From Cymodocea nodosa (taxonomy: Eukaryota > Streptophyta > Magnoliopsida > Alismatales > Cymodoceaceae), in contig CM072336.1 in the NCBI GenBank assembly GCA_036874045.1, positions 7,716,501-7,780,500 on the forward strand: a DNA stretch of 64,000 nt, given 5' to 3'. Position numbers and translations under genes: made by a program. Position 1 is the stretch's first letter; every line of letters begins with the position of its first letter. This document shows positions 10,962-58,838 of the stretch, piece by piece. Under the pieces are notes generated by a model that worked only from the letters and a program-made list of their open reading frames with translations, searched no databases and was not told the DNA's origin.

Positions 10962-10992
10962 CCTGCCCCCGCTTCTTCCCTTGATGCGGTGA

Positions 10993-31148: not shown

Positions 31149-31329
31149 TTAGGGGGGATTAGTGCTTGACGGAATTCAACTGACGGAAAGGAAAATTGTT
31201 GAATTCCGTTAGAATGTCATTAGTGTGCACAATATCGAAGGAAAATGAAAGTGTAAATTTACCGACATATAAATATGTAATTTTACCTTTACCCTTCCCT
31301 CATTTCTGACCTTCCATGTTCGGAAAATT

Positions 31330-32125
31330 TTTCACCCATACATCCATCGCGACCACTCGCATCCGTCGGTGCCGCAACATCCACCGCTGCATCCGAAGCT
31401 CGCAGCCCTCACATCTGTCGCGATCGCTCGCAACCATTGCAGTCGTTGCTCACGGTCGCTACTGCCGCATCTGTCGCTACCGCTACCGCTGCATCCGAAG
31501 CTCGTAGCCCTCACATCCGTCGGTGCCGCAACATCCGTCGCTGCATCCGAAGCTCGCAGCCCTCACATCTGTCGCGATCGCTCGCAACCGTTGCAGTCGT
31601 TGCTCACAGTCGCTACTGCCGCATCTGTCACTGTCGCTACCGCTGCATCCGAAGCTCGTAGCCCTCGCATCCGTCGGTGCCGCAACATTCGCCGCTGCAT
31701 CTAAAGCTCGCAGCCATCACATCTGTCGCGATCGCTCGCAACCGTTGCAGTCGTTGCTCACGGTCGCTGCTGCCGCATCTGTCGCTGCCGCTACCGCTAC
31801 ATCCGAAGCTCGTAGCCCCCGCATCCATCGCGACCACTCACAACCGTTGCAGTCGTCACTCACAGTCGTTCCTGCCGCATCGGTTGCTACCACTACATCC
31901 ACCGCTGTTGCCGCATCCGAAGCTCGCAGCCCCTGCATTAGTCGCAACTGCTCGCAACCGTTGTAGTTGTCGCTCACGGTCGCTGTTGCCGCATCCATCG
32001 ATGTCACTGCATCCGCTGCTGCCGCCGCATCCGAAGCTCTCAGCCCCTGCATCCGTCGCGACCACTCACAGTCGCTGCATCCACTACTGCTGCTGCCGCC
32101 GCATCCGCTGTGATTGCTACCATTG
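31330..32125. repeat. GC-rich tandem array, 154-bp period, inside Harbinger copy 1
   Basis: ATCCGAAGCTCG-type words recur at 31391, 31545 and 31699 and, in an offset half-unit, at 31493, 31647 and 31801; both series step by exactly 154 bp. After 31850 the units become irregular. The array is rich in CpG and GCATCCG/GTCGCT words, in sharp contrast to the AT-rich element around it. All six frames are partly open, which explains the overlapping open frames; none is taken as a gene. Confidence 0.9.
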
Positions 32126-32582
32126 CTGACGCTCGGTTTGTGCCTTTGTAAATTCTGTTTGAAATTCTATTTTCATCGTATGTATTTGTTTGTTAGTATA
32201 ATGTAATGTATGTTTTCATCATATGTATTTGTTTGTTAGTATAATGTTTGTAAGTATAATGTCGTTGATATTGAATACTTTGTTCAATCTGTCGTTGATA
32301 GCTCTTTGTCTTGATACTAAATGTTTTGATCAATCTGCCGTTGATATTGAAATTATGTATTTGTTTTGATCAGTTGGTATGTTTTGATCCACGAAAATGT
32401 GGTTATTGTAATTTAAGCAAATGTACTGAAATTATGTATTTGTTTGTTAGTATGTTTTGATCCACGAAAATGTGCTTAGTATGTTTTCAAATATTGAGTA
32501 GATTGACAAAAGATATTATGTTTTTGCAAATCTCATAATCTTCTATCGGAGCAGTTAATTAATATTTGATCTTATGTAGTAA

Positions 32583-33657
32583 ATGAGTACTCCTGATAGA
32601 GGACGAGGTAATGGAGGACGAACTTATATGACTTGGAATGCTGATGCAGATGCATTCTTTTTAGATATTTTGTCAGAAGTATTAAATGAGGGAAACAAAA
32701 AAACCCAAGATGGAAAGATAAAAGGGAGCACTTGGGATGAAGTAGTTGAAAAATACAATAATAGAAGAAATGCATGTATTACAAAGAAGAATGTGGAAAG
32801 TCGCTTAAAGACATGGAGACAAATTTATCGTAACTACTCAAAAATTGCAAATCAGAGTGGATGAGGATGGAATTTCATACAAGGGTATACTGATATAGAT
32901 GAAGAGATATGGAAGGAGTTTATTAAGGTAAGATTTTTATTTACATACTTTAAGATTATCCCAATTGTATTGAATTTTTCTTAATATATATTGTAATTTT
33001 ATGTAGGCACATCCAAAGTGTGAAAGCTGCAAGGGAAAACCATGTTTGATTTATGAACAATTACAACTCATTTTTGAAGGTACTATGGCTAGTGGAAATA
33101 TATCTAGACAGGCAGAAGAAGTAGACATTGTACCAAACACTCAAGTTCCAAATACATTTACTCCAGACATTACACAAGATGGAATGGACCTCGATTCTGA
33201 CATACCTCCTAGTTCAGGAGGAAGTGCACATGTTCCATTGGAGCAGAGGAAAAAGGGGAAGCGAGCACGCCCTCATGCAGAATCTCAACAAATGATAGCA
33301 GAAAGTTTGAAAGATACGTCACGAGCTTTTCTTACTTTGTGTGAACAAGATACTGTTAATGGTGAGGTACGTAATGAACAAATGAGAGAGATGGTTCAGA
33401 TACAAAAGGAGATGTTTGTATGTAAGAAGGAAATGTTTGCATGGAAGAAGGAAATGTTTGCATGGCAAAAGAAGTCTAAGTCTTTTTTAGATGAAGCTAT
33501 TGCTTCAATATTTGAGATTGAAGATCTATCTATGACTGATCGATATAAAGCTACTCAATTATTCCAAAAGCAAGAAATCAGTAAAATATTTCTATCAATT
33601 CCAAAAGAAATGCGACAAGGATGGTTGAAGTTTCACTTAGAAAAGATGGAAGACTAA
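32583..33657 (+). pseudogene. Harbinger-associated SANT/Myb-like DNA-binding protein (one stop)
   Basis: Exon 1 is 32583-32927 (donor AAG|GTAAGA) and exon 2 is 33007-33657 (acceptor ATGTAG). Residues 15-115 form the Myb/SANT-like domain: MTWNADADAFFLDILSEV, DGKIKGSTWDEVV, KKNVESRLKTWRQIYRNYSK, then EEIWKEF. After the intron, AHPKCESCKGKPCLIYEQLQ continues the usual family pattern, and the C-terminus holds a basic patch (KKGKRARPHAES) and a triple KKEMFAWKKEMF repeat of coiled-coil type. In PIF/Pong elements this protein binds DNA and helps the transposase into the nucleus. A TGA at 32862 replaces the second Trp of the GWGW motif intact in copy 2. The exon 1 start is the first ATG. Confidence 0.82.
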
Positions 33658-33863
33658 AGATGATTTACATGTTTTTTTTTTTTGTATTAGATGTATGATG
33701 TAACTACTTTTTGTTTGGACAAGGAAATGTGGAATGATATTATTATTGATGTTTGTTTATCATATTTTATTATGTTCTATTAATTGTGGAATGATTTCAT
33801 GTAATATGTTTATTTGTATTACAACCTTGTAATATGTTTGGACATGAAATTTTGTAGGTGACG

Positions 33864-35173
33864 ATGAATTTTGAAGAGGATTTTGACGAACTAGTAAATA
33901 ACACATTGATGTTATTTGAAGAAGAGGAAGAACATGCTAGAAGAAGGCGAAGACGTTTACTTGCTTTTTGGAATATTTTAGCAGAGATTGCAAGTACCTC
34001 AACTTTGTTTTCAAGTACAAGTCGTATTTATAGTAAAGAAGGTGCAGATTATATAAGAAGATTACTAGATCCTTCTTTACCACATCAAGTTTACAATTGC
34101 CGAAAGATTTATAGAATGAGTTAAAGTGTTTTCAAGGGTTTTTGTGAATTAATGAGGAGGGAAGAAGTGCTGAAAGATACCAACAATATCAGTGTAGAAG
34201 AGAAGTTTGCCATGTTCCTTGTGACAGTTGGGCAAAATCAAAGGTATGGAGTAACTACAGAATGATTTAGTCGATCAAGTTGGACAGTTAGTAAATACTT
34301 TAATGAAGTGTTGAATGCCATATTACGACTAAATCATGTTCTTCTAGCAAGACCTTCATCTGAAACACCAAGTTGAATTCGTCAAGACTCAAATGTGTAC
34401 CCATATTTTAAGGTACATTTTCACACCTTTGGTGTTTCCTTATCTTTAATGTTATTTTAGTCAATATCAAAATAAAAGTGCATGTTTATAGGATTGTATT
34501 GGAGCTATTGATGGTACACATATCAAAGCAACTATTTATGGACAAGAAACAGCAAGATTTAGGAACATGAAAGGTGAATTATCTCAAAATGTAATGGCAG
34601 CATGTAATTTTGATATGGAATTTACATATATTTTAGCTGGTTGGGAAGGATCAGCTGCTGATGCTCGTATTCTCCAAGATGCAGTTACTAGACCTAATGG
34701 TTTACAAGTTCCACCAGGTAAATGTGTTTTCCACTTCTAGAAGTTATGAAGACATCACCATACTAATATTTTTTTATACAGGTAAGTTTTACTTAGTTGA
34801 TGTTGGATATCCAAATCGACCAGAATATATTTGTCCATATCGAGGTGTAAGATACCATCTATCTGATTATGTTAATGATAGAGTTCCTCGTAATGCTGTA
34901 GAAAATTTCAAATACAGACATTCACAATTGAGAACAGTCATTGAGCGTACATTTAGAGTTGTGAAACATCGATTTTCAATATTACGTGGTCAAATGCCAT
35001 ATCCATATGAAACACAAGTAAAGATTGTCATCGCAAGTTTTTTGCTTCATAATTTTATTCGTAAGACTGATAAAGAAAATTTACTTGAGGAACTGCTAGA
35101 TGAGTTGGAAGAGTTAAATATTATTGATGACATACAACCAATGGGAGAGATACATATAGAAAGCAATGCCTAA
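33864..35173 (+). pseudogene. PIF/Harbinger DDE transposase (three stops)
   Basis: There are three exons: 33864-34412, 34492-34717 and 34782-35173. Exon 1 carries the N-terminal region with SSTSRIYSKEGADYIRRLLD and EEKFAMFLVTVGQNQRYGV. Exon 2 starts DCIGAIDGTHIKATIYGQET, with the first catalytic Asp in DGTH. Exon 3 has YLVDVGYPNRPEYICPYRGV (second Asp) and HSQLRTVIERTFRVVKHRF (catalytic Glu). This is the DDE_Tnp_4 (HARBI1-type) catalytic core, complete in its acidic residues. In-frame stops occur at TAA 34122, TGA near 34262 and TGA near 34373, all in exon 1, so the gene is inactive as read. It lies about 200 bp after the SANT gene, as in other Pong-like elements. Confidence 0.88.
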
Positions 35174-35483
35174 GTTCGAATGACTCAAGAACAAAGAAAA
35201 TAAATAACAGATAAGATGCGAGAAGATATGATGATGGCAATGTGAGATGGAATAACTAGATAATATTATTTCGTATTGTAATATTTCAATTAAGATGTAT
35301 TTGTATTTTTTGAATATTAGTTGTAATAAACTTTTGTCAGAATTTCCATCAGAATTTTTCGTCCTACACTAAACCCCTCTTAGAATTTTCCTTTTCATTT
35401 TCGTTACAAATTTTTCATTTTATTTCCGTCAGAATTTTTATTTTACTTTACATCAGAATTTTCCATCATGCACTAACACGCAC

Positions 35484-38180
35484 TTAAGGAAACTTGTGAA
35501 TATTGCTCGACCAACGAGTTCTGTCTTCCCAATTAGAGTCACAGCTGTACGCTTCTTCCAGGAATGGTCCTCGTAAAATGGCCATGAGAGTCAAGGATTG
35601 CCTTCATTCACTACTGTCGAATAGCTTCGACGCTATTTCTTTTAATAATAATCCACCGAAGGGATCGATCAAGATCTGCGATTTGACAGGTGCGCGACAA
35701 ACTTGTATCTATCCTTCTTTCAGGTGTAAGTGGCAACGCAATCAATCCACTGTTTCCCGGCCCCGGCGGATGCCTGAACAAGAAAGAACGGGGACCAAAG
35801 TAGCAAACCGATCAAGGGGCGGTGTGCCGATCGACAGCAGCACTGGGTGTCATGTCGTACACCCAGCTTCCATAATTGACGATGAACATGTCCAGGCACA
35901 TGCAATAGCACTACCAATCTGGCAAGCTAGTGATCCAGAGAATTACAACCAGTCGTGGAGGCCACACCCAAGGTATATATTGTGAGATGAACATTAATAT
36001 GCGAGAAACATTGTTAGTACAGTGCAAATGAGTGACATGCATGGAGATGGTAACGATCGATTTTGTCACGATCATGAATGAACCGGTGATGATATATACT
36101 TTTAAACCGTTTGACTTGTCATGAACAGCAAAGTTGTAGACGTCCCTCCCTCCGTGCATACCAACAAACGGGAATGTACAGGCCAGCTTGCGGCCACGTC
36201 TTTGTTCGCAGTACTTCCCTGCAAGAGACGAAGGAAGGAATTGTCACCATGTACATGTACACCTGCAAGATGCAGGCTAGCCAGACGAACAAGCATATTC
36301 CACTTGCAAATTAAAGGTGTATATAAATATGAACTGCATGAGGAAAATAACAAAAATGACAGTGCTTATCAGATCTTATTCTTATTCTTGCCCTCTTTAC
36401 GCGGATAAGTGTCAAAGAAATTTGAAAGGGGAGAATGATGAACACATTACTTGGAACTGAATAGAAAGCATCAATGCAAATGATTGTGGTTCTAGCTAGC
36501 CTAGAATATTAGTTTTTTCAACTTTCCTCCTGAATATTAATAGGAGAATTGTAAGAACAGTTACAGAGAAGAAGGAAAGCTATAGAAGACAAAGTGAGCA
36601 TTTAAGTCCCCTGACCCCTTTTGGGTGCAACAGCCTGTACAGAAGGTGTTTAAAATAATAACATACATGAAAAAGATTTATACAAAATATATTGACCCAA
36701 TGTAATCTATTAACCATTGGTATTTTCAAGGGTACTCGTTTCACCGTGGCCCCTACAATATCGTACGTACTTTAGTGAATACTGGGAAAGAACTTAAAAG
36801 TTAGAATGTCAGCCATAGATGTATGGATTGTGTGGTCGGGATTGCATGGAACTATGGATCAGATCCACGATCGCTTCTGGATAAACAATGAGGGATGGGT
36901 TGCATGAATCCTTGATGTATGTATTTCAAAAGCCGCAATATGTATGCTACGCTACCCAGTCTACACAAGTTACTTATCCTGACATTCATCATGTATGCTT
37001 GGAATTAAGGAGGTACGGTGTTGTTGCTACATTCGTTTGCATGAGAATCGATCTGCATCCAGAGAACCCAAGATCATATCTATTAATTGAAGAACTTTGT
37101 CTTCTGCTTCGACCTGCACAACCATCATGGACGTCAAGCAAGAGAGATGTTAGAGGTGAAGAAGAAAAGGGTGAAATGGACGTAGCGGCGAGGAAAAATT
37201 GAGGTAGGGTTTTTTCCTGCTCTCGCCCGTTTTCAAAGAGTAAAATATATACAAGGAAAGTAAAGTGAGTTTAATGAAGAAATAAAACATGAAAAAATAA
37301 AAAATGAAAAATGAAAGAATAAAACAAAAAAGGAAAGAAAGAAGAACAAAACAAAACCAAAAAAAATTATGGTAATTGAAGTTTAATATTATGACATGCA
37401 AGTTAATTAACGGAATTAATATTAGATTAATGAAAATGTTAAATTTTAATTATTAATATTAAAGTTGAAGTTAATCATATTAACATACAAGTTAACATTT
37501 AGATTTATTCTTTTACTTTACTTTCCATTACATTTCTGTAACATTTATTGATTTAGAATTCCATTTTTGCCAATTCTTCGAGGATCATGCATACATGCGG
37601 TTTAATAACAACAGGATTGAAACATATTTAATCACCAAAAGCAAACCCATGGTGTGCGTATTAACAATATATAACTTGTACAAGTGATCAAGAATTAGTA
37701 ACGGCTAAAGTCGAGATGCGCTACCTAAGCCAAGAAAATATTTAGGTAGACGGAACTAGTACATCACTTCGATTTTGCTCGGATAATGGATGAATGTGAT
37801 TGATCGATCTGCAAGTTCAAGTTGATCTGAGAGATTTGTCGATTATTAACGGTATGAACTGGTGATTAATATTCCAATACAAATAACAAATACAGGTAGA
37901 AGAAGTTCAAATTAAGGAAGACTACAAGTTCTCACATAAAACAAATTAAATCTTGGGAGCTGCAAGGATGAGAAGCTTTTACCATCTGTGAGTAGATCGA
38001 AACACTTACAATGAAGACCATTTCAGTGGTGTATATATTATCGAATCTTTTAGTGGTTTGGTAATCTAGAAAAGCCCAAATTAAGTAAGCAATTAAAAAG
38101 TGAAGAGTATTGAAAGTCAATCATGATTTACTCACCAGGCGTTTGAGAAAGGGTGTCATGATTTTCATATATTAAAAGAA
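35484..38180. other. Intergenic DNA left of MIR172
   Basis: The DNA here is less AT-rich than in the repeat clusters. The open frames 35503-35985 and 36888-37202 (+) have no motif I recognise, and other frames overlap them. A CT-rich stretch on the minus strand at 37130-37200 could be a promoter edge. From 37260 to 37560 it is A-rich. No gene is called. Confidence 0.35.
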
Positions 38181-38212
38181 ATCCAGAAAGGCGTTGACGC
38201 ACCCGTGTGAAT

Positions 38213-38228
38213 ATGTGTGTGTGTGTGT
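38213..38228. repeat. (GT)n microsatellite
   Basis: There are about eight GT repeats directly left of the MIR172 hairpin. Confidence 0.8.
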
Positions 38229-38239
38229 ACATATATAGT

Positions 38240-38345
38240 CGTCGATTGCCGATGCAGCATCATCAAGATTCTCATCCGAGGACTAGACCGTGGGTGGCTA
38301 AGCCAAGACCCATGTGAATCTTGATGATGCTACACCCGCAAGCAC
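38240..38345 (-). ncRNA. MIR172: MIR172 precursor hairpin
   Basis: miR172 guides cleavage and translational repression of AP2/TOE-type transcription factors, which controls phase change, flowering and floral organ identity. Read on the minus strand, the 3' arm 38272-38252 gives AGAATCTTGATGATGCTGCA plus a final T, the canonical 21-nt miR172a, followed by the conserved flank CGGC. The 5' arm 38333-38313 gives GTAGCATCATCAAGATTCAC plus A, the canonical star strand. The two arms pair with the usual mismatches around a loop of about 40 nt. The minus strand is chosen because both mature and star then have their canonical sequence and the mature sits in the 3' arm, as in all known MIR172 genes. On the plus strand the 3' arm would give the known variant ending GCTACAC, so antisense processing is not excluded. 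Confidence 0.95.
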
Positions 38346-39320
38346 CGACTGTTTGATAGGATCAATCACAGGCAGCGCTCATTCAAACATCCTACTGCAT
38401 AGAAATAGCGCTGAAACATACATTAGAAATGGAAAGAGAGGGGGGAGGAGAGACAGAGAGGAGTGAGATGTGCGTCGCTGAAGAGAAGGGAAAGTAGCAG
38501 TGGGCATGGAGAAAGGACATGGAATGGATTGTGGGATTCATGCACCACCTGCCCTTTCATAAGCGCGCAAGCAAGTGGTGGCAGGCGGCACTGCCATCAT
38601 CCCATGGTTAAGGCGCAAAAGAAAACCATGGCAGTGTTTCTGGGTCCCCAGACCAAGGGAATCTAATACTACTCTCATCACTACTCCTTATGTGAAACGT
38701 CTTCCTTCCATCCAAATCAAACCAGATCCTTTCAGAAATATGCCACACAATGTGAAAACCTAAAGAAAAGGAGGTCGAGAAAATTATACCAGACGGGGAA
38801 GGGAAGGGAGAACTGAGGAACCCTTGAAAACACCTACAGATTGTGTTGATTCCATCTCCACCTTTCTGTCTCCCAGCAGGGAAGACAAAGAAAAACGGTG
38901 AGCGAGTGAAGGTGGTGGTTTCACTATGAATTTGTGGCGCTGGTCTGTGTTAATCCCATATGCGACAGATCCTTGATAGAACCAAGGAGGAGATGGATTA
39001 CGCGCGACAGATGGGTTACACTAGCTACCTGAAGATGTCAGTTGATTTCTACTGATCAAAAACGGGCATAAGCCTTTAGTCTTCTTCTTTCCAAAGATGA
39101 TCGAAAAAGAGCATAACATAAGTGACCGCAACAAAAGCTAGACAGATGAGTACTACAGATCAAGGCAAACGATTAAGAAGCAAAGAGAAACCCTACTCAC
39201 AGGCCTGATATATAGCAATAGACTGATCCAATCACAGACTTCTGTGGGTGGCATAAATGCACAAGAGGACGACGCTGGGAGGAGGAGCGCATAAGGAGGA
39301 GTTTGGGTTTAGAAGAATGG
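38346..39320 (-). ncRNA. MIR172: Probable 5' part of the MIR172 primary transcript
   Basis: This is the stretch between the hairpin and the likely start near 39315-39320. On the minus strand the first 80 bases are C/T-rich (39240-39320), as plant 5' leaders often are. There is no long reading frame. Pri-miR172 transcripts in other plants are often about 1 kb and may be spliced; no splice sites were assigned here. The extent is inferred from the TATA box. Confidence 0.5.
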
Positions 39321-39345
39321 GGGAGGGAAGGGGGTGTGCGTGCGC

Positions 39346-39352
39346 TTATATA
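39346..39352 (-). promoter_or_regulatory. TATA box of MIR172
   Basis: The minus strand reads TTTGCTATATAAGCGCACGC, a good plant TATA box, with a pyrimidine-rich initiator zone about 30 bases downstream. It is the only strong TATA box placed suitably for the hairpin. Confidence 0.6.
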
Positions 39353-39399
39353 GCAAACTAAATTACATATCTAGGGTTGGTAATAGAGATAAATAACGA

Positions 39400-41669
39400 A
39401 TTTTCAGAAATATAGCAATGCTTAGCTGTAGTGTGGTGGCACTGTACCTTTTGTTTTTATACTAATTATTCTACTTTTCTAACGCTCGCGGTTTTGGGTT
39501 TTTACCGTCGTAATCCAGGCCCCTCCAAGACTATACTGTCCATGTGCCCCTCAAATGCTAGGGGGCTTCTTTTGCCTTGTAGTGGTGTGCTTGCTGCCAA
39601 GAATGTTCTATCAGTCACAAACGCTAGTGTACTACAAGATTCCTGCCGTTTGGTCTGGGTATTTCTTAATCTATGACGCCGAAAGACATCATCGATCAAC
39701 AGAGTGAAATAACATAAATTCCATAACATAAAAAAGAAAATCATTACTTGAAGCTTTACGTTATACGAGTATATATCCAAATTAAATGTGACCATGGTAA
39801 TTTAATTACTGGTTTGATGGGTTCAGTTTCTTCAGAAATCTTTATCCTTGCGGTAAGGGACTGGAGTTCGATCTTGGGTAATTAATTTTGATGGGGGAAC
39901 TATAAACCCTAAAAATTGAGTTCGTCGGTGTTTTTTTGCCCCAGTCCCCGCCAAGACGCAGGGAAATTAATCACAAGAGCATGGAGATTTCTTCTGAACT
40001 TTGCTTCTGCCTAAAGAAATAACGTAATTATCGATGCTATGGGAAGTATGGGACCATCCAATTAAGCTTTCGGTCTCTATTACAACTACATCAACCAATT
40101 AATGCTTTAATCTCGATCCTTACGTACGTGTCTAATTATTTATTTCTATATATCCATTACTAGCTGATTAAATATCTTATGTTTTAATCTCTATTATTGC
40201 GAATGTTTAATTACTTTGCTCTCTGTTGTTTTCTCCTTCTCTGAACATTTCAGCGCCACATTGCGGGACATGACGCGCGCGAAACGGAGAACCAGTAAAA
40301 AAAAAAAAAAAATTTCTGGATCATTTCCCATCCGTAATCGTCTTCCACGCATGTTAATAGTTTAACTAGGAACTTAATTTCCAAGTTGTGCCTTAGGAAT
40401 AATTAATTATATCATGCATAATTAATGTTAAGCCCCATCGATCGATCTCCTCCATCGGCAGCTAGCAAAATATTATTATCATGGCAACATGTTCGCTTGC
40501 TTTGGTTAACGTGGGTGTCCTTACTTATAACATTAATAATCTGCTCTGACTGACCTGTCCTCCCATGTTTCACGTACTTGAATATCTGAGATACCGTACG
40601 ATGTACATTAGAAACACTTAACAAAAGCAAGATCGATCTGATAAATCTGGCTACCCAAAACCTCTGGTTAATGACCTTGGCCCTGGTTTCTAGTTGCAGA
40701 TCGAGGCTGCTCTTGTGTAGGGTTAGCTAGTGTCCGCCGGTTCATCAGAGTAGAGCTCGAGCTGGAACCGACGGCCGAGAATCGCCGGAAGTCCGAGCGG
40801 TGCAGGAGTAGAAGGCAGCGAAAGTTAAACATTACTATTAGTGATCGATAAACATGTAATTAAGTAATCACAAACATGTTCCTTCGCGGCTGCCATTTTT
40901 TTCGGGAAAACGGAACGGGCGGTGGCGGTGGACTGACAACTGCGGTCGCGTGGTGGACGGTCGACGCCACTCAATTAACGCCGGACCCCACGTCCGTACG
41001 AACAGGACGACCGACGCCACTCAAGGCAGCGCCTTTCGCTTTCGTCTTTCGCAGACGTTTTGGTCAGACAGAAGAATTTCTACGGCATTATTGATACGAA
41101 TTCGAATCTTTATATTTACATTTATAATTAACTTTTTTTTGTAAAAAAAAACTGACACGTGGTCCCATACCCCCACCCTTCCGACTCAAATCGCGGACGT
41201 TTTATTAGTTTCAATGGACCGACAAAAGTGGTCAGAAGAAGGATAAGCGGTGATTACCAAGGTTATGAATCTATTTTTTCTCGTGAAACTGACAAGAGAA
41301 AATAAAAAACGTTTGATCCGCATTAAAATAAACTTAATAAAGCTTCTTCTTTTTTCCTATTTATGCCTTCTTATGGGGCATTGTCGTAAGGATGATGTAA
41401 GTGACAAAATGTATATCACATCATGCATGTCCCACCGATTGCGTTTTTCTTTTTTTCCCAGTGTGTGTGTTTGTTTTTTTCTTTTGTAACGAAGTAGGAT
41501 CAATGTGTGTGTTTTAGAATGCTAGGAATCTTAATATTCAAATACATATCAATAGGTTATATTACATAGGACCGTATTTTGCTGAGGAAGGGTAAGGTGA
41601 CAACTCATGCACAAGTTATAGTTTGTAGTTTAGTCATATTATATTATACATAATTTAGTCGTGTAATGT

Positions 41670-41709
<40 letters not shown>

Positions 41710-42700
41710 TATAAAATCTATATGTAGAATCTGTAAAACTTTAAATTTTGTAATAAAATTAGTATATTATTCACATTTATGATATGTTAAAAATCAAATA
41801 AAGTTTTTGTCTAAATTGATTTAAAGATTTTACAATTAGTATAACAAAATCGATAAAGACAAAAACTTTGTCTTATTTTAATTATCATTGTTGTAAACGA
41901 TACATCAATTGATTTTTTAAAAAAAAAATTGTGTAATGCCAAGATAGGTTTCAAACTAGTCCATGCTGATGTAACCAGGTTTTACTAAATGATGGTCTAA
42001 CATGATTTAAAAAAAATTACGTTACGTCGAACAACAACATGATTTGATTAAATCGGATCGTACTAATACAACTGAATTTGACCCAATTGATATCTCTACA
42101 TATTAACGAAAGCTACGAATACAAATGGTGGAAATCTAGCATTGCGTGTCGGATCATCAACAAATTCTTCTTTTTTTGCCCCTAATTGTCTTTGTATTCA
42201 CCTAAATTTAAACTTCAATGTACAGGTTGGAGTCAAAATGAAATGGGTAAAGCATGCATATGCATGGGCTCAGCTGGTAAATATAATATTTCTTATTGAT
42301 GATTGTGTAGAGGCAAGGATGTTGGCACAGCACAACACATCCTGGAAAGGTACGTAGATTTGAAGCCGACAGAGGAGAGGAGAGACGTAGAAAGAGCCAG
42401 CCATTCATGGAAAAAAAAGAAGAAAAAAAAACCCTAGACAGAAAGTCTTAAATATTTTGTAGCCAGTAAAGATTCTCTAATTTTTTCATTGAACATTATT
42501 CATATCATGTTTAATATCTTCTTTTGCATCACTATTATTATTTATTTTTATTTTCGAATGTGTAAAATACAATTTTGGTGTATAATATTTCATGTCTCAG
42601 TGTAGCATGTGGAACTCTTTCTCCTTCTTCTTCTCCATCTTCTTGTTCCTTAATTTATACAAAAAATATATTTATTTAAATTTTCAATGAAATTTATCTT
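39400..42700. other. Intergenic DNA right of MIR172
   Basis: This is likely to include MIR172 upstream control sequence. A GC-rich patch at 40700-41090 contains overlapping open frames on both strands, none recognised. A G-box-like ACACGTGG lies at 41155-41162. From 41500 the DNA turns AT-rich. No gene is called. Confidence 0.35.
41674..41705. repeat. (TA)n microsatellite
   Basis: This is a run of about 15 TA repeats. Confidence 0.9.
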
Positions 42701-42709
42701 ATTTTCTAT

Positions 42710-45700
42710 TACTTACTAACTTTGTGCACACTTGAATGTGACTTTTTGAACAACTAGTAGACTGTATTTCCTATTTCTACTAGTACACAGTGAGATTCAT
42801 CTTTCCTACTTAAGATCAAAAATATATGAAATTCTATATTTGAAGCAAAAATATCACATAATGCACTCCACCTAAGTTCAAAGAAAAAGCTACAATTACA
42901 TCATTCTTAATAAACCAATTGAAATTTAAAAGAATAAAAATACCTCTTAGGTAAAAACCAACTTGGATGGAATTGGTACCATATATAGTTCATTCTCCTT
43001 TAGGGCATCAAGGAAAGTACAAAAAGGAAATTAGTTTCACATCAATTCAATTATTAATAACTAGTAACTCCATAAAAAGAATCATACTAAAACTTGATCA
43101 AACATCCTCTCCCACTCAATTGGATGCAAATGGTCCCACCAATGCTATATTGCTCGAAAATTTGTGTTATTTCCATTGATATCTAATGGCTTCAATTGAA
43201 GTTCCTATTTAAAATAAATATTATTTTCAAAATCTTAATGCATCGAAAACAAATTTGGAAAACATATAACTCACCTGTTTAGCAATAATTCCAACAATGG
43301 CTTTGCGCCTTCTAAGAGAAGGATCATGAGCTTCTACTCCTTTATCTAAAATCCCAGTGAGTACTTATGGTAATATCGTTCTCTTTTATAAAATACATTA
43401 TAAAAAATTTTCATTCCCCTGTGTAATTGTCGAAATATTTTATATGATTGATGTGGTATGTGTTGCATATCATTCAGGAAATAGCGCCAAAGGTACCCTG
43501 CAAATAATAACAAATTAACTGCCAACATTTAAAAAATATTTAGGCTTGTTGCCATTATAAATTGCATGATGCATATTTATATTTCTTTTTCCTATATCAA
43601 AATTATATGCTACTTATTCCTTTCAATCACATGATAGCGGTCAGTTTCATTTGTAATAATGTATGAAAACAATACTATAACCACTTTGTTTTTTGACGAA
43701 GATACCATAACCACTTGATTAATTTGGTCATTTGTCACTACAAAAAGAAAAAGAACTACACTTATGTTGTATCTGAAATGTGTTATGTATGGTTGGCACA
43801 AGCTTGAAAATTTAGTACATGTGACAACCCATCAATTCTCTTCCCAATGATGACTCTCTACCTTTCTACAGGCTCCTCTTTACTAATTCGAATGACTAAA
43901 CAAAGTTCCATGTTAATATAGTTATCGAGATTGTTAATATTTGAACAAAATTACCAACACGCATAATGCATTTACTTTACATGATTTAACTACAAGGTTT
44001 GCAAAATCATATAAGCAATCTCCAATGTATGCTGAGTAAATTTTTTTCTTGTCATGCACCTTTTAAATTGTATGACTCTTTTATTACAAAAAAGAAAAAA
44101 CATTGTATGACTGTCTGCCCTTTTCCAGCGCAAGGACAAGTTCACATGCAGCAACTGATATGACTGCAAGTTCTATTTTGGACACAATAATAACATTTCT
44201 TTTGAAACCTAATGCCACGATGTTACAAATTCCTTTCAAAAACAAACCATGTCTGCTGTTAGGTCATCACTCATCAATGGTAATGCTATTACACCGATCA
44301 ACTACGGACCCCCACCCTAGAACAGTTTCATGTTCTAGAAAGTTCCTACATGCTCATAGAGCGAAACTTACTTATTTTGTCTATCATGCATCTGTAGAAA
44401 ACCACTGCTGAAAAGGATAATATTGGTGGAGTTAAAAAAATTGTCCCTTATTTTACTTAAAACTACTGCACATCCGCCCCCCCCCCCACAAATATCTGCA
44501 AATCTGGAATTCCTCTTGTTTCTTGACCTAATAGTTTGAGACGATCGCTCAGTATGACATACCAGCTACTATAATATGGAATGGTGTACATGCTTAGATT
44601 TTAGATATCGATCACAGTCCACTACGCTTGATGGAAGCTTTTTCTGGTCTCAGAATATCAGCACTACATAAATATAGAATCCATGCCTTCACTATCCCTC
44701 CCCCCTTATCATCGAACTCCTCACCAGTTGCATCTTTTCGAGATCAGTTAATCTTGCGATCTCACTTCTTTAGACCCATCACCACCACAACGATGGCCTG
44801 GCAAAATTGGTACCTCAATTTCGAATTCTACATATGCCACAACCAAGTTGTGACTTACATGCATGTTATTTTTAACTTTAGACTAGTTCTAATTTCATTA
44901 CAAGAAATAGATCTTCTGAGAACTACACGGTCCTACATCTCTGTAACCTAAACAGCATTGGTCAATAAGCATTGGTAGCTGGATATCAGGATTTTATGAA
45001 TATCGATCATCATTGAACCAAAACCGTGGCGATGGCAGAAAAAACAGCATGCTAACCGTGATAATGCATGCACTTGGCATCCACAACTAGATAATATATA
45101 TGGCTCTATTTTTATCTTGTGAAGATCGTAGGAGATGTAAGCAAAGGTTGCACAACTTATTTCAAAGTGAGAGAGCGCCCACCATTCATTGAAAACAAGG
45201 GTTACGAATGGTGGTAACCACAAATAGGGGGGTATTCTATTCAAAAAGGAGTGCCTGGCCCATTTTTATGAAAACAAATTAATTAAACTACGAATGAAAC
45301 TTTTTTGCCATTGCAGATGAAATATTTCCACTGAAGCATGACCAAAAAATTAGAATGAATGTCACATACAAGTACGTATGCAAAACCAGTAACTAGCAAA
45401 ATTTGAAAAGTAAAATCTCGCTAAAAGTCTACCATGCAATTGGCCATCACTTTATTGTGCGAGAGATAAATCCTAAAAATATTTCCGTCATCCAAAACGA
45501 AATCTCTGAACGTGGAACAATTGATATGATCTCACATTTTTTGGAAAATGATGATTTGATTGAAATAAAAGAGGTGCGAAGGCCCGGCTGTGCTAACATC
45601 CATTGCTGAGTCAGAGTACAGCACATACAAATCATATAAATTGTGGGTTCAAACATATATAAACCACAAGAAAATTAAAACAGTAGGTGGTGAGACAGGT

Positions 45701-45850
45701 CCTACAGCAGCACCCTCTCTTGCAGCAAGAAGACTTGACACGTTGCGGTTGAGATCATCCCATTGATTCCATATTTCATTGACAAGCATCTTGCTCAGAG
45801 TTGAACACCCATGATACAAATCTGAATGCTTAAGCCACGGAATAGTGAGA
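42710..45850 (-). other. Exon-like pieces of an unrecognised minus-strand gene
   Basis: Several minus-strand segments look coding and lie in one orientation. 45654-45830 reads TDGLTIPWLKHSDLYHGCST, LSKMLVNEIWNQWDDLNRNV and SSLLAAREGAAVGPVSPP. 44120-44240 reads NIVALGFKRNVIIVSKIELA and VISVAACELVLALEKG. 43278-43350 reads ILDKGVEAHDPSLRRRKAIV GIIAKQ and is followed by a GTGAGT donor. 42713-42880 reads WSALCDIFASNIEFH, then, after an in-frame TAG, LFKKSHSSVHK. Each is longer and better composed than chance in this AT content, and one ends at a clean donor. The stop in the last piece, and my failure to join all the pieces, suggest a decayed or partly missed gene. I do not recognise the family. 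Confidence 0.4.
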
Positions 45851-45899
45851 CCATCTGTTCTTGGTTAATATTCCAACAAACATATATATTTAAAAATCA

Positions 45900-47746
45900 A
45901 CTACTTTTTGTTTGTTTTGGTTTGATAGATCCTATCTTAAAAGATCGATTGGATAGGAAGCGATCTCATTTCATTTCAAATACAATTTAAACCGATGTCT
46001 CGTACAATTGATGGAGGACTATTGATATCATACTCAATAGCATATAACAATTCCGTCATGTTTCTTATGCTGACATTTTCGTTATGCGTCAGTTTAATTT
46101 TCAGGTTGGCCTCCTTTGATGAATGGGCTCTCATAGGCCTACGTTAAGTGTTTTAAGTGCTATTTCGACCTTCAAGTTATTCTTTTTGACGTCCATTTTA
46201 AATCGTATTGAGTCTGATACTATTTAACATGAGTCAGAAAAATCTACTTCTAAAGATCAACCTAATAAAATGAAAGCCTATTTTATTTCAAGTTCACAAC
46301 AATATCTCATATATCTTATACCAGGTAACTCGTAACAGCCGCTTAACCAGAGACAATAATTGATGACATTAATTATTAGACCTGGTCTATGATTAATTGG
46401 ACCAAAACCAAAGAAACTTTTCTCTCACATTGATAGAAAAGGGTTGTATTGTGGTCCAGTGTCTCTACCCACGGGATCAGCGGTCCACACTAATCCATTC
46501 TGACACACACTAATGATCAACTCTTAATCTCGGAAGCATCCGGTACAGACAGCTGGGAAATGAAAGAGATCACATGATTTACTTGGAATCAGCGCTTTGT
46601 GACAGATTTCTTTATCCGCCGTCCAGCTTAGCGCCGCTTAATCATGGCTTTTGAAATTAATTAAGCACTGTTCGATTACGGAAGCTAACGAGGGATTAGG
46701 CGGTAAAGCACTATGTGGAATGGACGAGGAAAAGTACTTGTACTTACCCGTGGTTTCTTCCTTAAAGCAAGTGTTCACGTTTCGAAGCGCCTTAAATCAA
46801 AGAAAGTGTTGGGTAAATAATAATAATATATGTCCCTCCCAGGCTACTTCCATGCTTAACGATATGATAAGATATAACTAAATAATTGCATGAGTTAATT
46901 AAAATAAAAAAAGTTTTAAGCTTTTTATAAAGTTTTAAATTTGATAATACACCTAAAAGGTTGATCTTCTCATCATCCACGATCACATGCTTGAATCTAC
47001 GTAGATACAAATTGGGTGGAATACACCTAAAAAAATTTAAATTTGATAATAACACCAATTTTAAAAAAAAAGGAGGAAGGACACTTAACCAACAGAAAAG
47101 GAAAATTCAAAACATTAACAATGTTTATCTTATATTTGGTAATATAGATCTTAAATATTCCTTTTCTTATTAGTTTCCTATCACCAAGATGCATTTACAT
47201 GTTAATTTCTTCCAAATTGGCTGTTACGTATATTTAAGATAAAATTTTCGTTTTAGTTTTAAGGAATGACTATTTTTGAAAGATGATTTTAAGGCACATT
47301 AAAATTTGTATTTGAATATTTTTAATAAAATCGTACTTGTTGAATGTTATTACTTTTTTCACAAATTAGTTTAACTGTTCTTCAATATCATGTCATGAAA
47401 TGATTTTTAAAAAATATTGTTTTCATTGAAATTTTAATTAATTTTGTATTCATGTGCAAAATCTTAACAAAATAATATTTAAAAAAGTTTAGTGTTACTG
47501 CATCATTTGAATTACTAGAACTTTCATAATTATGTAAATATGATATCAAAACACAAAATTGTATATAAAAATATTTAATATTAATTTTTTATTAGTGTTA
47601 AATTTTCAGAATAAGTAAAATCTTGATGACAAAATTTGAATTCAGCATTTCAGTTTAGTATTATATATAAAAACATATCAAACTTTTTTAGGGTTTGACA
47701 ATGGAAAAGAACTAGATGATACTTTTTAGTGAAATTTAACACAGAT
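45900..47746. other. Intergenic DNA before Harbinger copy 2
   Basis: A minus-strand frame at 45975-46140 (MRAHSSKEANLKIKLTHNEN…) is open for some 50 codons without known motifs. The rest becomes very AT-rich after 46880. No gene is called. Confidence 0.35.
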
Positions 47747-48082
47747 TTAGGGGGTGTTTGTGCACCCACAAAACGACGGAAAGAAAATGACGAAAAACTA
47801 CGGAAAACATCGGAAAGGAAAATAACAAAAAGTAACGGAAAATTTATAGAAAATCAGAGTATTTGTGCACGTAACAGAAAATGACGGAATTTGAAAAACG
47901 TATGTTTGTGCATGTAATAGAAAATGACAGAAAATTATAGAATGTAAATTATATATGCTTGTTCACAGATTAGAAAATATTGAAGACTAACTCAATTCAA
48001 TATTTATTATTCATGTTTGGAAGATAGAGAATAAGAAAATTTGTCATAAATAATATAAGATAGTTACAACATAAAATACATA

Positions 48083-49498
48083 TCACATCTCTCTATTGTT
48101 CCACATATCTCTCATAATATTGGCACGTATTGTATCAACAATTTGCTTTCTATAATCCTGACTTGATTCAATAGTAGCAAATGTAGCTTCTTCTGTAAAA
48201 GTTTGTTGAACATTATCATCTGACATTCCTTGTAATTCTTCTTGCTCATCTTCAAGTAAATCTGTTTTGTTTGCTTTTCGAATAAAATTGTGAACTAAAA
48301 AACATGCCAATACAATCTTTCCTTGTGTTTCAAAAGGAAATGGCATATAAACTCGTAAAATTGAGAATCGATATTTGATTATTCCAAATGTACGTTCAAT
48401 TACTGTCCTTAACTATAAATGCCTATAATTGAAAATTTCAATTGCATTCATTGGAAGTCTATTAGCATTATAATCATTCAAGTGATATCTTGCACCTCAA
48501 AATGGTACAATAAATTCTGGCTTATTAGGAAAACCAACATCTCCCAAGTAATATTTAACTGTAATTTATATAGAAGTTTAGAATATAATGTTAGAAACAT
48601 TAATTCTACAATTTCTACTATACATAAGTATTCACATTATTTTTATTAGTATCATACCTGATAGAATCTTAAAAGCATTACGTCGAGAAAATGCATCATA
48701 AAGAATACGAGCATCAGCTACTGATCCTTCCCATCCACTAAGAACATAAACAATTTCTATATCAAAATTACATGCTGCTAATACATTTTGTGATAATTCA
48801 CCTTTTCTATTCCTCCAACGTGCAGTTTCTTCACCATAAATTGTAGCTTTGACATGAGTACCATCAATTGCTCCAATGCAATCCTAAAAGAAAAAAGAGT
48901 ATACATAATAAAGACCACTACATAGTAAAGAAGACATTGAAATATAACATTAACTCACCTTGAAATAAGGATAAACATGCCGATCATTTTGAATTCGTGC
49001 TGGTGTTGATGATTCTTGCTTAGCTAATAGTTTATATCCTACTTTTAAAATTCCATTCAACATTTCATTGAAGTATGTACTAATTGTCCAACCAGATCGA
49101 CGAAAGCGTTCATTACTTACACCATATCTTTGATTTTGTCCAATTGTAACTAAAAATATTGCCACCTTTTCTTCCACATTCATACATCTAATATCTTGCA
49201 CTACCCCTTCACGTCTCAAAAAACTACAAAAGTGGAAGAATACATGTTGATTCATTCTATAAATTTTCCTACAATTATATACTTGATTAGGTAAAGATAG
49301 ATTTAATAACGTAGTAATATATTATTGTCCTTCTTTGCTGTATATTCTAGAAGTACTCCTTGCAACATAATTCGCACCACTTGCAAAACTATTTATGAAT
49401 TTCCATGATTTCATAAGATATAAGAGTATTTGTTCTTGTTCTACCTCTTCCTCTTCCATAAGCACTTTCAGAAGTTTCATGTTTGCATTTGTGTCCAT
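48083..49498 (-). pseudogene. PIF/Harbinger DDE transposase, copy 2 (three stops)
   Basis: The exons are 49498-48959, 48883-48658 and 48558-48083. Exon 1: MKLLKVLMEEEEVEQEQ, SRIYSKEGQ, then NQRYGVSNERFRRSGWTIST. Exon 2: DCIGAIDGTHVKATIYGEET (first Asp), then GELSQNVLAACNFDIE. Exon 3: YYLGDVGFPNKPEF (second Asp), LRTVIERTFGIIKYRFSILR (Glu), ending DNVQQTFTEEATFA…MWNNREM. The DDE acidic residues are all present. Stops are TAA at 49324-49322, one TGA in VPF*GARYH, and one TAG in YRHL*LRTVIERT. The exon borders are in the same places as in copy 1, which supports both models. Confidence 0.88.
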
Positions 49499-49831
49499 TT
49501 GTAGTAAGTAAAAATACCTACAAAAAAAAAACCAGATAGACAATAATATTTACATCAGATGATGACAATAACAATCTACATTAGAACATAATAAAAATAT
49601 CTGGTACATCATCAACATACATAACATTAAATAACATGAAACATTATCTTGTACATCATCAATATCAACAACATACATAACATTCAACAACATAATACCA
49701 CCAACAACATTCATAATAATAGCAAGGCCTTAATAACAATGTTTACTGCCTAACATCAACAACATTCTTCATTTCATATTATGTCTTAACCAAGTTAGTC
49801 TCATGTCCTGCGGTAAACCTAAAAATATTCT

Positions 49832-50810
49832 TCATTTTTGATGGTTTTCTAATAACGTCATTGCATTATATACTTCATCTTCATTTAGCTCACTTAGTTC
49901 AAGCAATGATGGAATAATGTCTAATTCATTTCTTTCTTCATTGTGTTGGAGTCTTAAGAATCCATTTCTTTCTTCTTCAACTTTGGCTATATGCTCCATT
50001 ATCTGCATTCTAGTTCTATTACACTCTTTATATTCCTGTAAAAATTCTTTCATGTCTATTTCCATATCCCTAACTAATGCTGCCATCTTCTCAGATGATT
50101 CTGCATGAGGACGAGCTCGCGAGCGCTTCTTTTTAGAATCCAGTTTTTGTGAAGATGGTGTTGGCATATCATCACTAGATGGTATTGGACACATGATGTT
50201 ATTGAAGTTACTGAATAGAGATATGTCATCATTTAAATTAACATCTTTAGACTCATAGAAGTCCATAGGTATTGCGCTTGTTCCTCCTCCAGCAACACTT
50301 GTCTGAAAAATTAACTTCAACTGCTCATATATTGTACATGACTTTCCTTTCAAGGTGGCACATTTAGGATGACTCTACAAATGAAGAAGAAATATAATGA
50401 GTACAAAATAAAGTATATATAAAATAAGAGAGAAACATATGCATCATAATAATTAAAGTCACCTTCACAAATTCTTCCCAGATTTCATCAGGTACAGATG
50501 TATGACCACTTATATAGTCCCATCCCCATCCACTTTGATTGGCAATCTTGCTATAATTTTTATACATTTGCCGCCAGGTCTTCAAACGACTATCAATATT
50601 TTTTTTCTCTAACCCAGCATTTGTTTTCAAATTGTAAGCTTTGATTACTTCAATCCATGTGTCCGCTCTAATCTTGCCATCAGGTGTTTTGGCATTTCCT
50701 TGATTAATAGTATCACAAAGAAGATTTAAGATCATTTCATCATCTTTCTAACTCTATGTGAAATTTTTCCTTGATGTAGTCTTCTTTCTATGACCATTGC
50801 TTTTTGTCAT
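49832..50810 (-). pseudogene. Harbinger-associated SANT/Myb-like protein, copy 2 (two stops)
   Basis: Exon 1 is 50810-50463 and exon 2 is 50374-49832. The SANT region reads DDEMILNLLCDTINQGNAKT, DGKIRADTWIEVI, NIDSRLKTWRQMYKNYSKIA, NQSGWGWDYISGHTSVPDEI, WEEFVK. Exon 2 starts SHPKCATLKGKSCTIYEQLK, followed by a basic segment (KKKRSRARPHAES) and a Glu-rich helical C-terminus (EHIAKVEEERNGFLRLQHNE). Two TAG codons sit just before DDEMIL, one where a Trp would be expected. If translation began at the Met in DDEMIL, most of the domain would still be made, but the first helix would be short. Confidence 0.82.
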
Positions 50811-51639
50811 TGTCTACAAATGTATTATTTGCATAATTAAAATACCTCACAAGTAATTAAGATTGATAGAGAAACATAATGTCAAGCATTCAAGTGAAGT
50901 AGATTAACAGAAAAGAACAAGTACCAATTGATTCTAGGGTTGTAATATTAACATGCAAAAGCAAATATTTAGCAACTCCAATATTAACAATGCACGAACA
51001 TGTAAAAACAACATTCTACTCTATTCCTGGAATGACCAAAAACAACACCATAGTCAATAAGATAATTAGTTTTCAACATTACCATCATAAAAAACTAAAT
51101 ATAATTACATGAACATGTAAAAATATTGAATTACTTGCATGTCTAATATTGAAAAATCACTTTTATGTGGTGTATAAGGATGCAGACAAAATGATATGTG
51201 ATAAATTGTAAATGTTGAAAGATATATAAGTAAAAGAATCCATTGGAAATAAGTACTGATTACCTGTGCAAGGTAGCTTTCAGAAAATAGGAGAACTGGA
51301 ATATTTCAAATTCACAAGAAAACAGCACCATCAATTGCTCATGCATTATCAGTATTTTGTCATGAACATGATATCGATACTTTACTGGATATTATGATGT
51401 CCATAAGTTGTATTATTATCCTGGATTTGTCAAGCAGTAAGAGTACAAGTACAATAGGAATTATAATGTCTATAGCATGTGCATCAATTGTTCACACCTA
51501 CCACAAATTCAACATTGCAAATTCAACATTACTGAACAATGGTGCAAATGGAAGCAAAGTCTTAATCACCACTACAGAAGATAATATTGTTGATCAGATG
51601 TCTGCTTCTGATCGCCATAAACATACATAAATTACAGGA

Positions 51640-52398
51640 AAAATAGAGCAGTGAATGTAAAAAGATTACATAAATATCATACATAAATTATCAGTATTTC
51701 ATAATCAGTATGCGGCCATCTTACTTTAGCAATACTTGCTATTGCTGGGATAAACATAACAAAGGATAAAGAGAGCAGTGAATGTAAAAAGATTACATAA
51801 ATTACATACATAAATTATTAGTATTTGATTATCAGTATTTCATAATCAATATGCAGCCAACTTCCTTTAGTAGTACTTGCTATTGTTGGGATAAACATAA
51901 CAAAGGATAAAGAGAGCAGTGAATGTAAAAAGATTATTTCCAATGATGTATGGACCCAAAATATATTCGAAAATGATAATAATGTGATGAAAGTCCTATA
52001 TCTCAGTTAATTCATCTAGCAATATTTGTTTATTGTTCATCTAGCAAATTAACTAAAGCAATGCTTCGTTTATTGTTCATTAATCCCTGAAGATTATATT
52101 TTTCAAACAGTTAAGAACTAGTGTCATTGTGGATTGTGCACCCAGAAAATGATGCATACTGTCATTGTTTATCACTGCACCATCCCAGCAATATACACCA
52201 CTTAAGTGATTAGAGTAGTTCTTAAACAATTCATTGTCCTATACTGTCATTTTTGCTTTCTCTGTGACTATTTAAGAGCATTAATATTTGTTTATTGTTC
52301 ATCTAGCAAATCAACTAAAGCAATGCTTCATTTATTGTTCATTATTCCCTGAAGATTATATTTCTCAAACAGTTAAGAACTACTATCATTGTGGATTG
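51640..52398. repeat. Local duplications in the 5' region of Harbinger copy 2
   Basis: GAGCAGTGAATGTAAAAAGA recurs at 51646, 51773 and 51914 in units of 127 and 141 bp. Separately, about 116 bp at 52021-52137 is repeated at 52283-52398 (TTTGTTTATTGTTCATCTAG, then CCCTGAAGATTATATTT). The stretch has no reading frame of note and would form the long 5' leader or an intron of the SANT transcript. Confidence 0.85.
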
Positions 52399-52719
52399 CT
52401 AATTTTGAACTACTGTCATCAAGGGTTTTGTGGGAGATAACGTAACTGCCAATCATTGCAGATATTTTTGATGCACTAGTCAATAGGAAAGCATTACAAC
52501 CAGATGGACATTAACATCGTAACTACTGTCATGCAGATTAACATTACAGGAAGATGCCATAAATCACCATTAACATCATCAACATACATAAAACTGTATG
52601 ACAGTAGGGTATAATGTCATGATGGGGGTAAATCAAATTACAGTAAGATTGTTTGAAAACTAAATCAATTGAAGAATAAAAAGAATTAGCATTACTTGAA
52701 ATTTTACCGATTACTTGAA

Positions 52720-53260
52720 GACGGCGCTTCCCTAGTTGCGACGAGGAGGACGACGGCGATTCTGCGTGATAAATGAGGGTGAAGATGTGCAAGGATGCGA
52801 CGAGGAGATGACGGTGCAAGAAGGACGACAACACTTCCCTAGTTGCGACGAGGAGGACGACGGTGCAAGAAGGACGACAACGCTTTTCTAGATGTGACGA
52901 GGAGACGACGATGCAAGAAGATGCGCAAGAAATAAGTACAGAGACGACGGTGCAAAAAGATGCGCAAGAAGGATGACACCACAAGAAGATGCGACGAGGA
53001 GGAAAACGACAAGGAGACGACGGCGCAAGAAGATGCGCAACAAATAAGTACAGAGACGACAGCGGAAGAAGATGTGCTTCGGATGTCGGACGACGACGCT
53101 TTTTGGATGCGACGAGGAGATGACGGCGCAAGAAGATGTGACGAGGAGGATGACGACGACGAGACGACGGCGGAAGAAGATGCGACGAGGCAGCCGACAG
53201 TGAGGAGACGACAGCGGGCGAAGATGCGCAAGGGCGAGGATGCGCGAGGAGGGTTCGTTC
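52720..53260. repeat. GC-rich tandem array inside Harbinger copy 2
   Basis: Words such as GCAAGAAGATGCG and CGACGAGGAGGACGACG recur about ten times in units of some 30-60 bp. The array is purine-biased on the plus strand, rich in CpG, and lies next to the right terminus, which is the 5' end relative to the genes. Open frames on both strands (52544-53523) result from the repeat and are not called. Confidence 0.85.
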
Positions 53261-53689
53261 GAGGGGTGTTTTCCGTCATTTTCACCCTTGGATGTGGTTG
53301 GAAAACGACGGAAAAATTTTCAGGGTGTTTGCCGGTTTCGCTAGAAAATGGCGGAAAATCTCAGGGGTGCACAGACACCCAAAAAATGATGGAAAATTTT
53401 CCGTCATTTTCCTTTCCGACGTTTTCCGTCGTTTTCTGGGTACACAAACACCCCCTTATGAGTCAAATTGCTGATCTTCAACCTAAAAAGAAGGAGAGTA
53501 GTTTGAGAGCATTTGAGTGGTAACCAAACTTCGATGGTAACTTTGACTTACTGATCAATTGATTTGATACATACATAGTTCGTTCTTACCATGCGACTAT
53601 GTGTTCTTGATCATGAACTTTCACATTTTGCTTTCATGGTTGATTGAGAACTATTGTTGGAATTTTGATTAGTTGCGATTGTTTTGATG

Positions 53690-58198: not shown

Positions 58199-58228
58199 AT
58201 GAAAAGCTATGGTGAGATTGTTGAAAAG

Positions 58229-58838
58229 AGAGAGAGAGGAAGAGAAGGGGGAGAGGGAGAGAGAGAAAGAGAGGGAGAGAGAGAGAGAGAGGGAGTGAGA
58301 GAGGGAGAGAGAGGGAGGGAGAGAGAGGGAGAGAGAGAGAAGGGGAGAGAGGGAGAGGGAGAGAGAGAGAGAGAGGGAGAGAGATAGAGAGAGGGAGAGA
58401 GGAGAGAGAGAGGGGGAGAGAGAGAGAGGGAGAGAGAGAGTGAGAGAGAGAAAGAGAGGGAGAGAGATAGAGAGAGGGAGAGAGGAGAGAGAGAGTGGGA
58501 GAGAGAGAGAGGGAGAGAGAGGGAGGGAGAGAGAGGGAGAGAGAGAGAGAGGGAGGGAGAGAGAGGGAGAGAGAGAGAAAGAAAGGGAGAGAGAGAGAGG
58601 GAGAGAGAGAGTGAGAGAGAGAAAGAGAGGGAGAGAGATAGAGAGAGGGAGAGAGGAGAGAGAGAGTGGGAGAGAGAGAGAGGGAGAGAGAGGGAGGGAG
58701 AGAGAGGGAGAGAGAGGGAGAGAGAGAGAGAGGGAGGGAGGGAGAGGGAGAGAGAGAGAAAGAAAGGGAGAGAGAGAGAGGGAGAGAGGGAGGGAGAGAG
58801 AGAGAGAGGAAGAGAGAGAAAGAGAGGGAGAGAGAGAG
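58229..58838. repeat. Long polypurine (GA/GGA) tract with a 171-bp higher-order repeat
   Basis: Over about 610 bp the plus strand is almost entirely A and G (GAGAGAGGGAGAGAG words, a few T). TGAGAGAGAGAAAGAGAGGG occurs at 58441 and again at 58612, and the pattern between them repeats with a 171-bp step. The Glu/Arg frames across it result from the repeat. Confidence 0.93.

Follow-up and report, generated by a model that had tools for sequence, protein, structure and literature searches.

In a stretch of 64,000 nucleotides from Cymodocea nodosa (GenBank assembly GCA_036874045.1, contig CM072336.1, positions 7,716,501 to 7,780,500 of the forward strand; hereafter the window), two degenerate PIF/Harbinger copies, E1 and the inverted E2, each carry a GC-rich, CpG-dense tandem array roughly 200 bp in from the 5′ terminus, ahead of a SANT/Myb-like gene. 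Composition and strand polarity agree between the two arrays while their words differ. It is tentatively proposed, with a confidence that stops a little short of even, that each array is the promoter-proximal leader of its SANT gene and was grown by tandem duplication.

Both elements showed PF13359 and PF12776 matches above the cut-off, TTA flanks and terminal inverted repeats (TIRs), and both followed the order terminus, array, SANT gene (PF12776) and DDE_Tnp_4 gene (PF13359) (Table 1). A preliminary description of positions 31152–53455, a span covering both elements and the approximately 12 kb between them including a MIR172 precursor, had reported this order, and it was confirmed by Tandem Repeats Finder (TRF), by the observed-to-expected CpG ratio (CpG o/e) and by Pfam. 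The copies are old and broken. Stops were found in the genes of E1 and E2, and neither has the uninterrupted ORF1 and transposase of an autonomous element; in E2 the SANT gene has a stop between the ATG at 50810 and the domain-bearing piece. The TIRs of E1 are imperfect and its right end is ambiguous, lying either at 35379 or at 35483, where CACTAACACGCAC is followed by TTA. The segment 35380–35483 holds a second TIR-like terminus with another TTA, which may be the genuine end of E1 or a duplicate of its terminus.

The protein pieces of the two elements were 27–72% identical (tblastn), and the top DNA alignment reached 69% over 1108 columns across the transposase gene (blastn), long alignments being found at genes only and short matches at the ends. 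Among the ten protein pieces scanned against Pfam, two transposase pieces had no family match, 33858–34121 of E1 and 48950–49321 of E2, yet each matched the gene of the other element by tblastn; the E2 piece 48083–48412 matched PF13359 with an E value of 4.6e-5, under Pfam's cut-off. When the ten pieces were searched against the window by tblastn (E up to 0.01), only E1 and E2 were recovered and no third Harbinger copy was found. No relatives of one E1 transposase piece were found in collections of viral and of bacterial/archaeal contigs.

Table 1. Coordinates of the two elements and their parts in the window. Expected numbers of GACGGAAA-like words are from dinucleotide shuffles, and the p values are optimistic because the motif was chosen by visual inspection ahead of the counts.
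Feature	Position	Strand	Details
E1	31152..35379 (alternative right end 35483)	+	left TTA then GGGGGGATTAGTG; right CACTAAACCCCTC then TTA
E1 5′ subterminal region	31152..31340	+	3 GACGGAAA-like words, 0.227 expected, p 0.001
Candidate TATA box	31268..31275	+	TATAAATA, about 70 bp ahead of array 1
Array 1	31340..32120	+	GC 62%, CpG o/e 1.35; element sense strand 61% pyrimidine with a single ATG, at 32001
AT-rich stretch, array 1 to SANT start	32121..32579	+	possibly an intron
E1 SANT/Myb-like gene	32583..33657	+	PF12776 E 2.2e-10 in first piece; stop within 32583–32867
E1 transposase gene, in pieces	33858..35173	+	PF13359 E 4e-6 (34492–34737) and 4.5e-12 (34637–35170)
E1 3′ subterminal region	35330..35483	-	4 GACGGAAA-like words, 0.276 expected, 0/1000 shuffles; two TIR-like ends
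E2	47750..53455	-	TIRs identical at 31/33 positions; TTA on both flanks
E2 3′ subterminal region	47750..47960	+	6 GACGGAAA-like words, 0.497 expected, 0/1000 shuffles
E2 transposase gene, in pieces	48083..49510 (start approximate)	-	PF13359 E 1.6e-6 (48632–48883)
E2 SANT/Myb-like gene	49832..50810	-	PF12776 E 4.2e-12 in 50364–50747
AT-rich stretch, array 2 to SANT start	50814..52699	-	possibly an intron
Array 2	52700..53260	-	GC 54%, CpG o/e 1.66; element sense strand 68% pyrimidine and free of ATG
E2 5′ subterminal region	53250..53455	-	7 GACGGAAA-like words (3 on +, 4 on -), 0.581 expected, 0/1000 shuffles

The repeat structure of each array was resolved by TRF. Array 1 repeats span 31356–32070, beginning with the previously described 154-bp unit (3.1 copies with 93% matches, 31356–31830) and continuing with 102- and 114-bp periods. 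Array 2 was called as two pieces, 52794–52920 (49 bp, 87%) and 53112–53228 (44 bp, 79%), with a further 16-bp period at 53216–53249; the gap between the two pieces is spanned by blastn self-matches. The whole window has a GC content of 33% and a CpG o/e of 0.62, and the element bodies are lower still in CpG o/e, at 0.48 (32580–35390) and 0.39 (47750–52690). Among 300-bp steps with more than 48% GC, a CpG ratio above 1.3 was reached only at the two arrays and at 40701–41200, and TRF found no tandem array at the other GC-rich, CpG-dense places (10301–11100, 35551–36050 and 40651–41200). In both elements the GC-rich arrays are confined to the SANT-side end, and the opposite ends carry AT-rich tandem repeats (47770–47942 in E2 and 35382–35466 in E1). 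Inside the 3′ end of E2, the AT-rich tandem periods measure 34 and 43 bp, the latter at 47823–47942.

The two arrays also have the same polarity. In element sense, C exceeds G both in array 1 (40% vs 22%) and in array 2 (36% vs 19%), and both are pyrimidine-rich. The unit of the second copy had been called purine-biased, which holds for the + strand only, E2 being inverted. At k = 8, the two arrays in element sense had 12 words in common, where 8.8 were expected (p 0.23, 300 dinucleotide shuffles), and at k = 6 they had 46, where 57.6 were expected; with the arrays in opposite relative orientation, 7 words were common at k = 6 and none at k = 8. No sharing above shuffles was detected at k = 6 to 10. 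The repeats are therefore unrelated at the word level, as had been stated, but this does not set them apart from the rest of the elements, whose long alignments are limited to the genes; for the same reason, finding dissimilar repeats at the same position says little in favour of selection.

The placement of both arrays some 200 bp from the 5′ terminus with the SANT gene behind, together with the equal polarity, supports the leader reading. The sense strand is also poor in ATG: sense and antisense counts were 1 vs 35 in array 1 and 0 vs 20 in array 2, and the ATG-free runs 31316–32001 and 53279–52692 are exceeded in length, on their respective strands of the window, only by the run at an AG-rich repeat near 58–59 kb. 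The AT-rich stretches behind the arrays contain 18 sense ATGs up to 32582 in E1 and 67 in E2 (counted over 50811–52699), so that translation of a SANT protein from the ATG at position 32583 or 50810 would require either an intron in this stretch or transcription beginning downstream of the array. At the edges of the arrays, and 3 nt ahead of the two SANT ATGs, there are candidate splice sites that fall among the best 13% of donors or acceptors by an approximate weight matrix, namely donor 32136 (rank 4 of 221) and the acceptor before 32580 (rank 5 of 44) in E1, and donor 52707 (rank 15 of 263) and the acceptor before 50813 (rank 11 of 87) in E2. Upstream of array 1 stands a candidate TATA box; TATAWAWR occurred in 4% of 2000 shuffles of 31152–31340.

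From the observed position, composition, polarity, ATG pattern, tandem structure and CG/CHG-type copy differences of the arrays, we infer where transcription may begin, how the transcript may be spliced, how the arrays may have grown and any benefit they may bring. Transcription would begin in the approximately 200 bp behind the 5′ terminus, and the transcript would pass through a GC-rich, pyrimidine-rich and ATG-poor leader. The AT-rich, ATG-dense stretch after the leader would be removed by splicing ahead of the SANT start codon. The leader may have expanded by tandem duplication through slippage, unequal exchange or the repair of gaps left by excision, with a fast turnover of its units, which would explain why the repeats of E1 and E2, although the elements are related, differ in sequence yet match in composition and polarity.

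Several observations weigh against a leader. The sample consists of two elements, both broken. No TATA match was found in the first 1500 bp of E2, and splice sites scoring higher than the candidates above are present in both elements. The ATG shortage is weak evidence because repeat copies are not independent: at the unit level P was 0.06 for one 154-bp unit and 0.08 for 31788–32070, and in array 2 it was 0.52 and 0.55 for two stretches and 0.018 for the whole array. Immediately ahead of each array is an ATG (31316 in E1, 53279 in E2) from which a sense frame extends into the array: 31316–31507 (+), of 63 amino acids, in E1 and 52839–53279 (-), of 146 amino acids, in E2. Were these ATGs part of the transcript, the leader would contain an upstream open reading frame (ORF) or would itself be coding. 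Stop-free sense frames run through the arrays for up to 153 amino acids in array 1 and 187 in array 2. Folding of the sense RNA was no stronger than that of shuffles (z of -0.51 with 20 shuffles and 0.01 with 100 shuffles), and a structured RNA was rejected on this ground.

The same frames raise the alternative that each array is part of an ORF starting at the ATG just before it and encodes a repeat-built N-terminal or upstream peptide. Besides the two ATG-led frames, the stop counts over three frames, 7 and 5 in sense against 28 and 17 in antisense for arrays 1 and 2 (figures taken without a shuffle control), would agree with coding, as would the periods of 102 and 114 bp, which are multiples of three. 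However, C-rich composition by itself lowers the number of sense stops, and the 154-, 44- and 49-bp periods shift the frame. The E1 frame stops after its 63 amino acids, where the first 154-bp copy ends, and the two peptides differ in make-up, that of E2 being serine-rich. Coding arrays are accordingly judged very improbable.

A further alternative, and the second role named in the preliminary description, is that the array offers repeated binding sites for the SANT protein or the transposase. The Myb-like protein of related elements is said to bind subterminal regions or TIRs (PMC4055405, PMC2836001). Words like GACGGAAA (up to 1 mismatch; expectation from 1000 dinucleotide shuffles) recur at the four element ends of E1 and E2 (Table 1) and are absent from both arrays; elsewhere, the E1 body has 4 such words, the E2 body none, and the initial 31 kb of the window 15. 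Ends and arrays differ clearly, and a binding platform fits poorly because the words are gathered at the ends, with none in the arrays. Each element, moreover, has a GC-rich array at a single end, and the words of the array are not the same in E1 and E2. The platform is thus quite improbable.

The arrays had also been suggested to be spacers escaping silencing, that is, CpG islands kept free of methylation. The CpG o/e of the arrays, far above that of the element bodies, would be in line with this suggestion, as would a cruder CpG-only test, in which array 1 showed no excess of CpG transitions (79 of 179 transitions vs approximately 41% expected). In plants, methylated CG and CHG cytosines decay. 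The differences between array copies were split by CG, CHG and CHH context, a split chosen after the CpG-only result was known. The three 154-bp copies have 14 variable columns, comprising 7 CG transitions, 6 CHG transitions and 1 transversion, and CG and CHG columns together were variable in 13/74 cases whereas all CHH columns were invariant (0/26; Fisher p 0.019). Pooled copy pairs, which overlap and are not independent, pointed the same way, with changes at CG, CHG and CHH of 34/144 (24%), 27/95 (28%) and 10/102 (10%) in array 1 and of 34/132 (26%), 6/21 (29%) and 16/144 (11%) in array 2, next to 10 and 39 transversions, respectively. Escape from silencing is unsupported, since most differences between copies are transitions at CG and CHG, the pattern that methylation would leave in plant DNA, and we hold it to be highly improbable. 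The high CpG ratio reads instead as that of a young or CpG-rich starting sequence that is now decaying. Of the earlier proposal of a promoter or CpG island, the promoter-proximal part is partly supported, in the form of a leader suggested by position, polarity, the ATG-poor sense strand and TATAAATA in one of the two elements, and the unmethylated island is not supported.

Neutral growth deserves more weight than these alternatives, although it too is doubtful. Here, GC-rich low-complexity DNA near the element end would have expanded by slippage or gap repair without any role, the two cases being a coincidence or the legacy of an inherited repeat-prone stretch. Tandem growth at PIF/Harbinger ends has been published and is tied there to abortive gap repair (PMC2213677). 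The lack of common words beyond shuffles, the AT-rich tandem repeats at the other ends of both elements and the broken state of both copies are all consistent with such growth. What it accounts for less readily is that polarity, side and high CpG density agree in E1 and E2 and that GC-rich arrays occur at the SANT-side end only. A region prone to repeat growth, which the preliminary description had allowed for, is likely to be the correct account of how the arrays arose.

The leader reading can be carried further, to a lineage that keeps a fast-turning, strand-polar, CpG-dense and ATG-poor tandem leader before the SANT gene, its sequence changing from one subfamily to the next with composition, polarity and place retained, the behaviour of a 5′ leader under selection; we regard this extension as unlikely. 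If it were true across intact relatives, a transposon could hold the make-up of its leader while tandem duplication rewrites the sequence, and repeats that are polar and ATG-poor, yet unrelated, would provide a simple test of function for unalignable repeats. If it were not, the arrays would represent ordinary repeat growth in dying elements.

As for known systems, no open-licence paper was found that describes a GC-rich, CpG-dense array in PIF/Harbinger elements in its title or the start of its abstract. mPing has a CpG-rich pyrimidine stretch near the corresponding place. Subterminal tandem repeats as such have been published for PIF/Harbinger-like elements, in the MtPH-A6-4 subfamily of Medicago truncatula (PMC2213677), and the preliminary statement that nothing of the kind was described was mistaken to that extent. 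The repeats reported there have a 60-bp unit with a triplicated AAACNNCTTATT motif, whereas E1 and E2 carry GC-rich units of 154, 102 and 114 bp and of 44–49 bp. Neither element has a 60-bp unit with AAACNNCTTATT, and of the 4 matches to this motif in the window (up to 1 mismatch; 14.8 expected), none lies within E1 or E2.

Ping/Pong of rice likewise possess a Myb-like ORF1 and a transposase as two genes, and mPing makes a TAA duplication, comparable to the TTA flanks of E1 and E2; unlike in E1 and E2, no array is mentioned in the available portions of these accounts (PMC4055405, PMC2836001). PePIF1 of Phalaenopsis is also PIF-like, with a TTA duplication and with ORF1 and TPase arranged head to tail, and the words tandem, subterminal and GC-rich do not occur in the main text of its description (PMC6327408). 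A likeness outside this superfamily is offered by Ogre retrotransposons, in which hypervariable tandem repeats occupy the 3′ untranslated region (Macas 2009, cited through the review PMC9659126). In both cases, fast-changing tandem repeats would occupy a fixed untranslated position in a transposable element of plants; Ogre is, however, a retrotransposon with repeats on the 3′ side, and E1 and E2 are DNA transposons with arrays on the 5′ side.

Other features were observed in the window. The MIR172 precursor between E1 and E2 (RF00452, 85 bits; MIR172 is a plant family) lies at 38242–38345 (-), approximately 2.8 kb from E1, and the CpG-dense segment 40651–41200, situated 2.3 kb upstream when read on the precursor's strand, could be its promoter. 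The CpG-dense segment 10301–11100 includes a GC-rich ORF at 10509–10961 (-) with a ribosomal L18p match (PF00861, E 7.5e-8), likely a host gene. AT-rich tandem arrays outside the two elements occur at 25777–26315 (periods of approximately 61–95 bp) and 60977–61258 (41/83 bp), and an AG-rich microsatellite of approximately 600 bp, nearly pure purine on the + strand, extends over 58227–58838.

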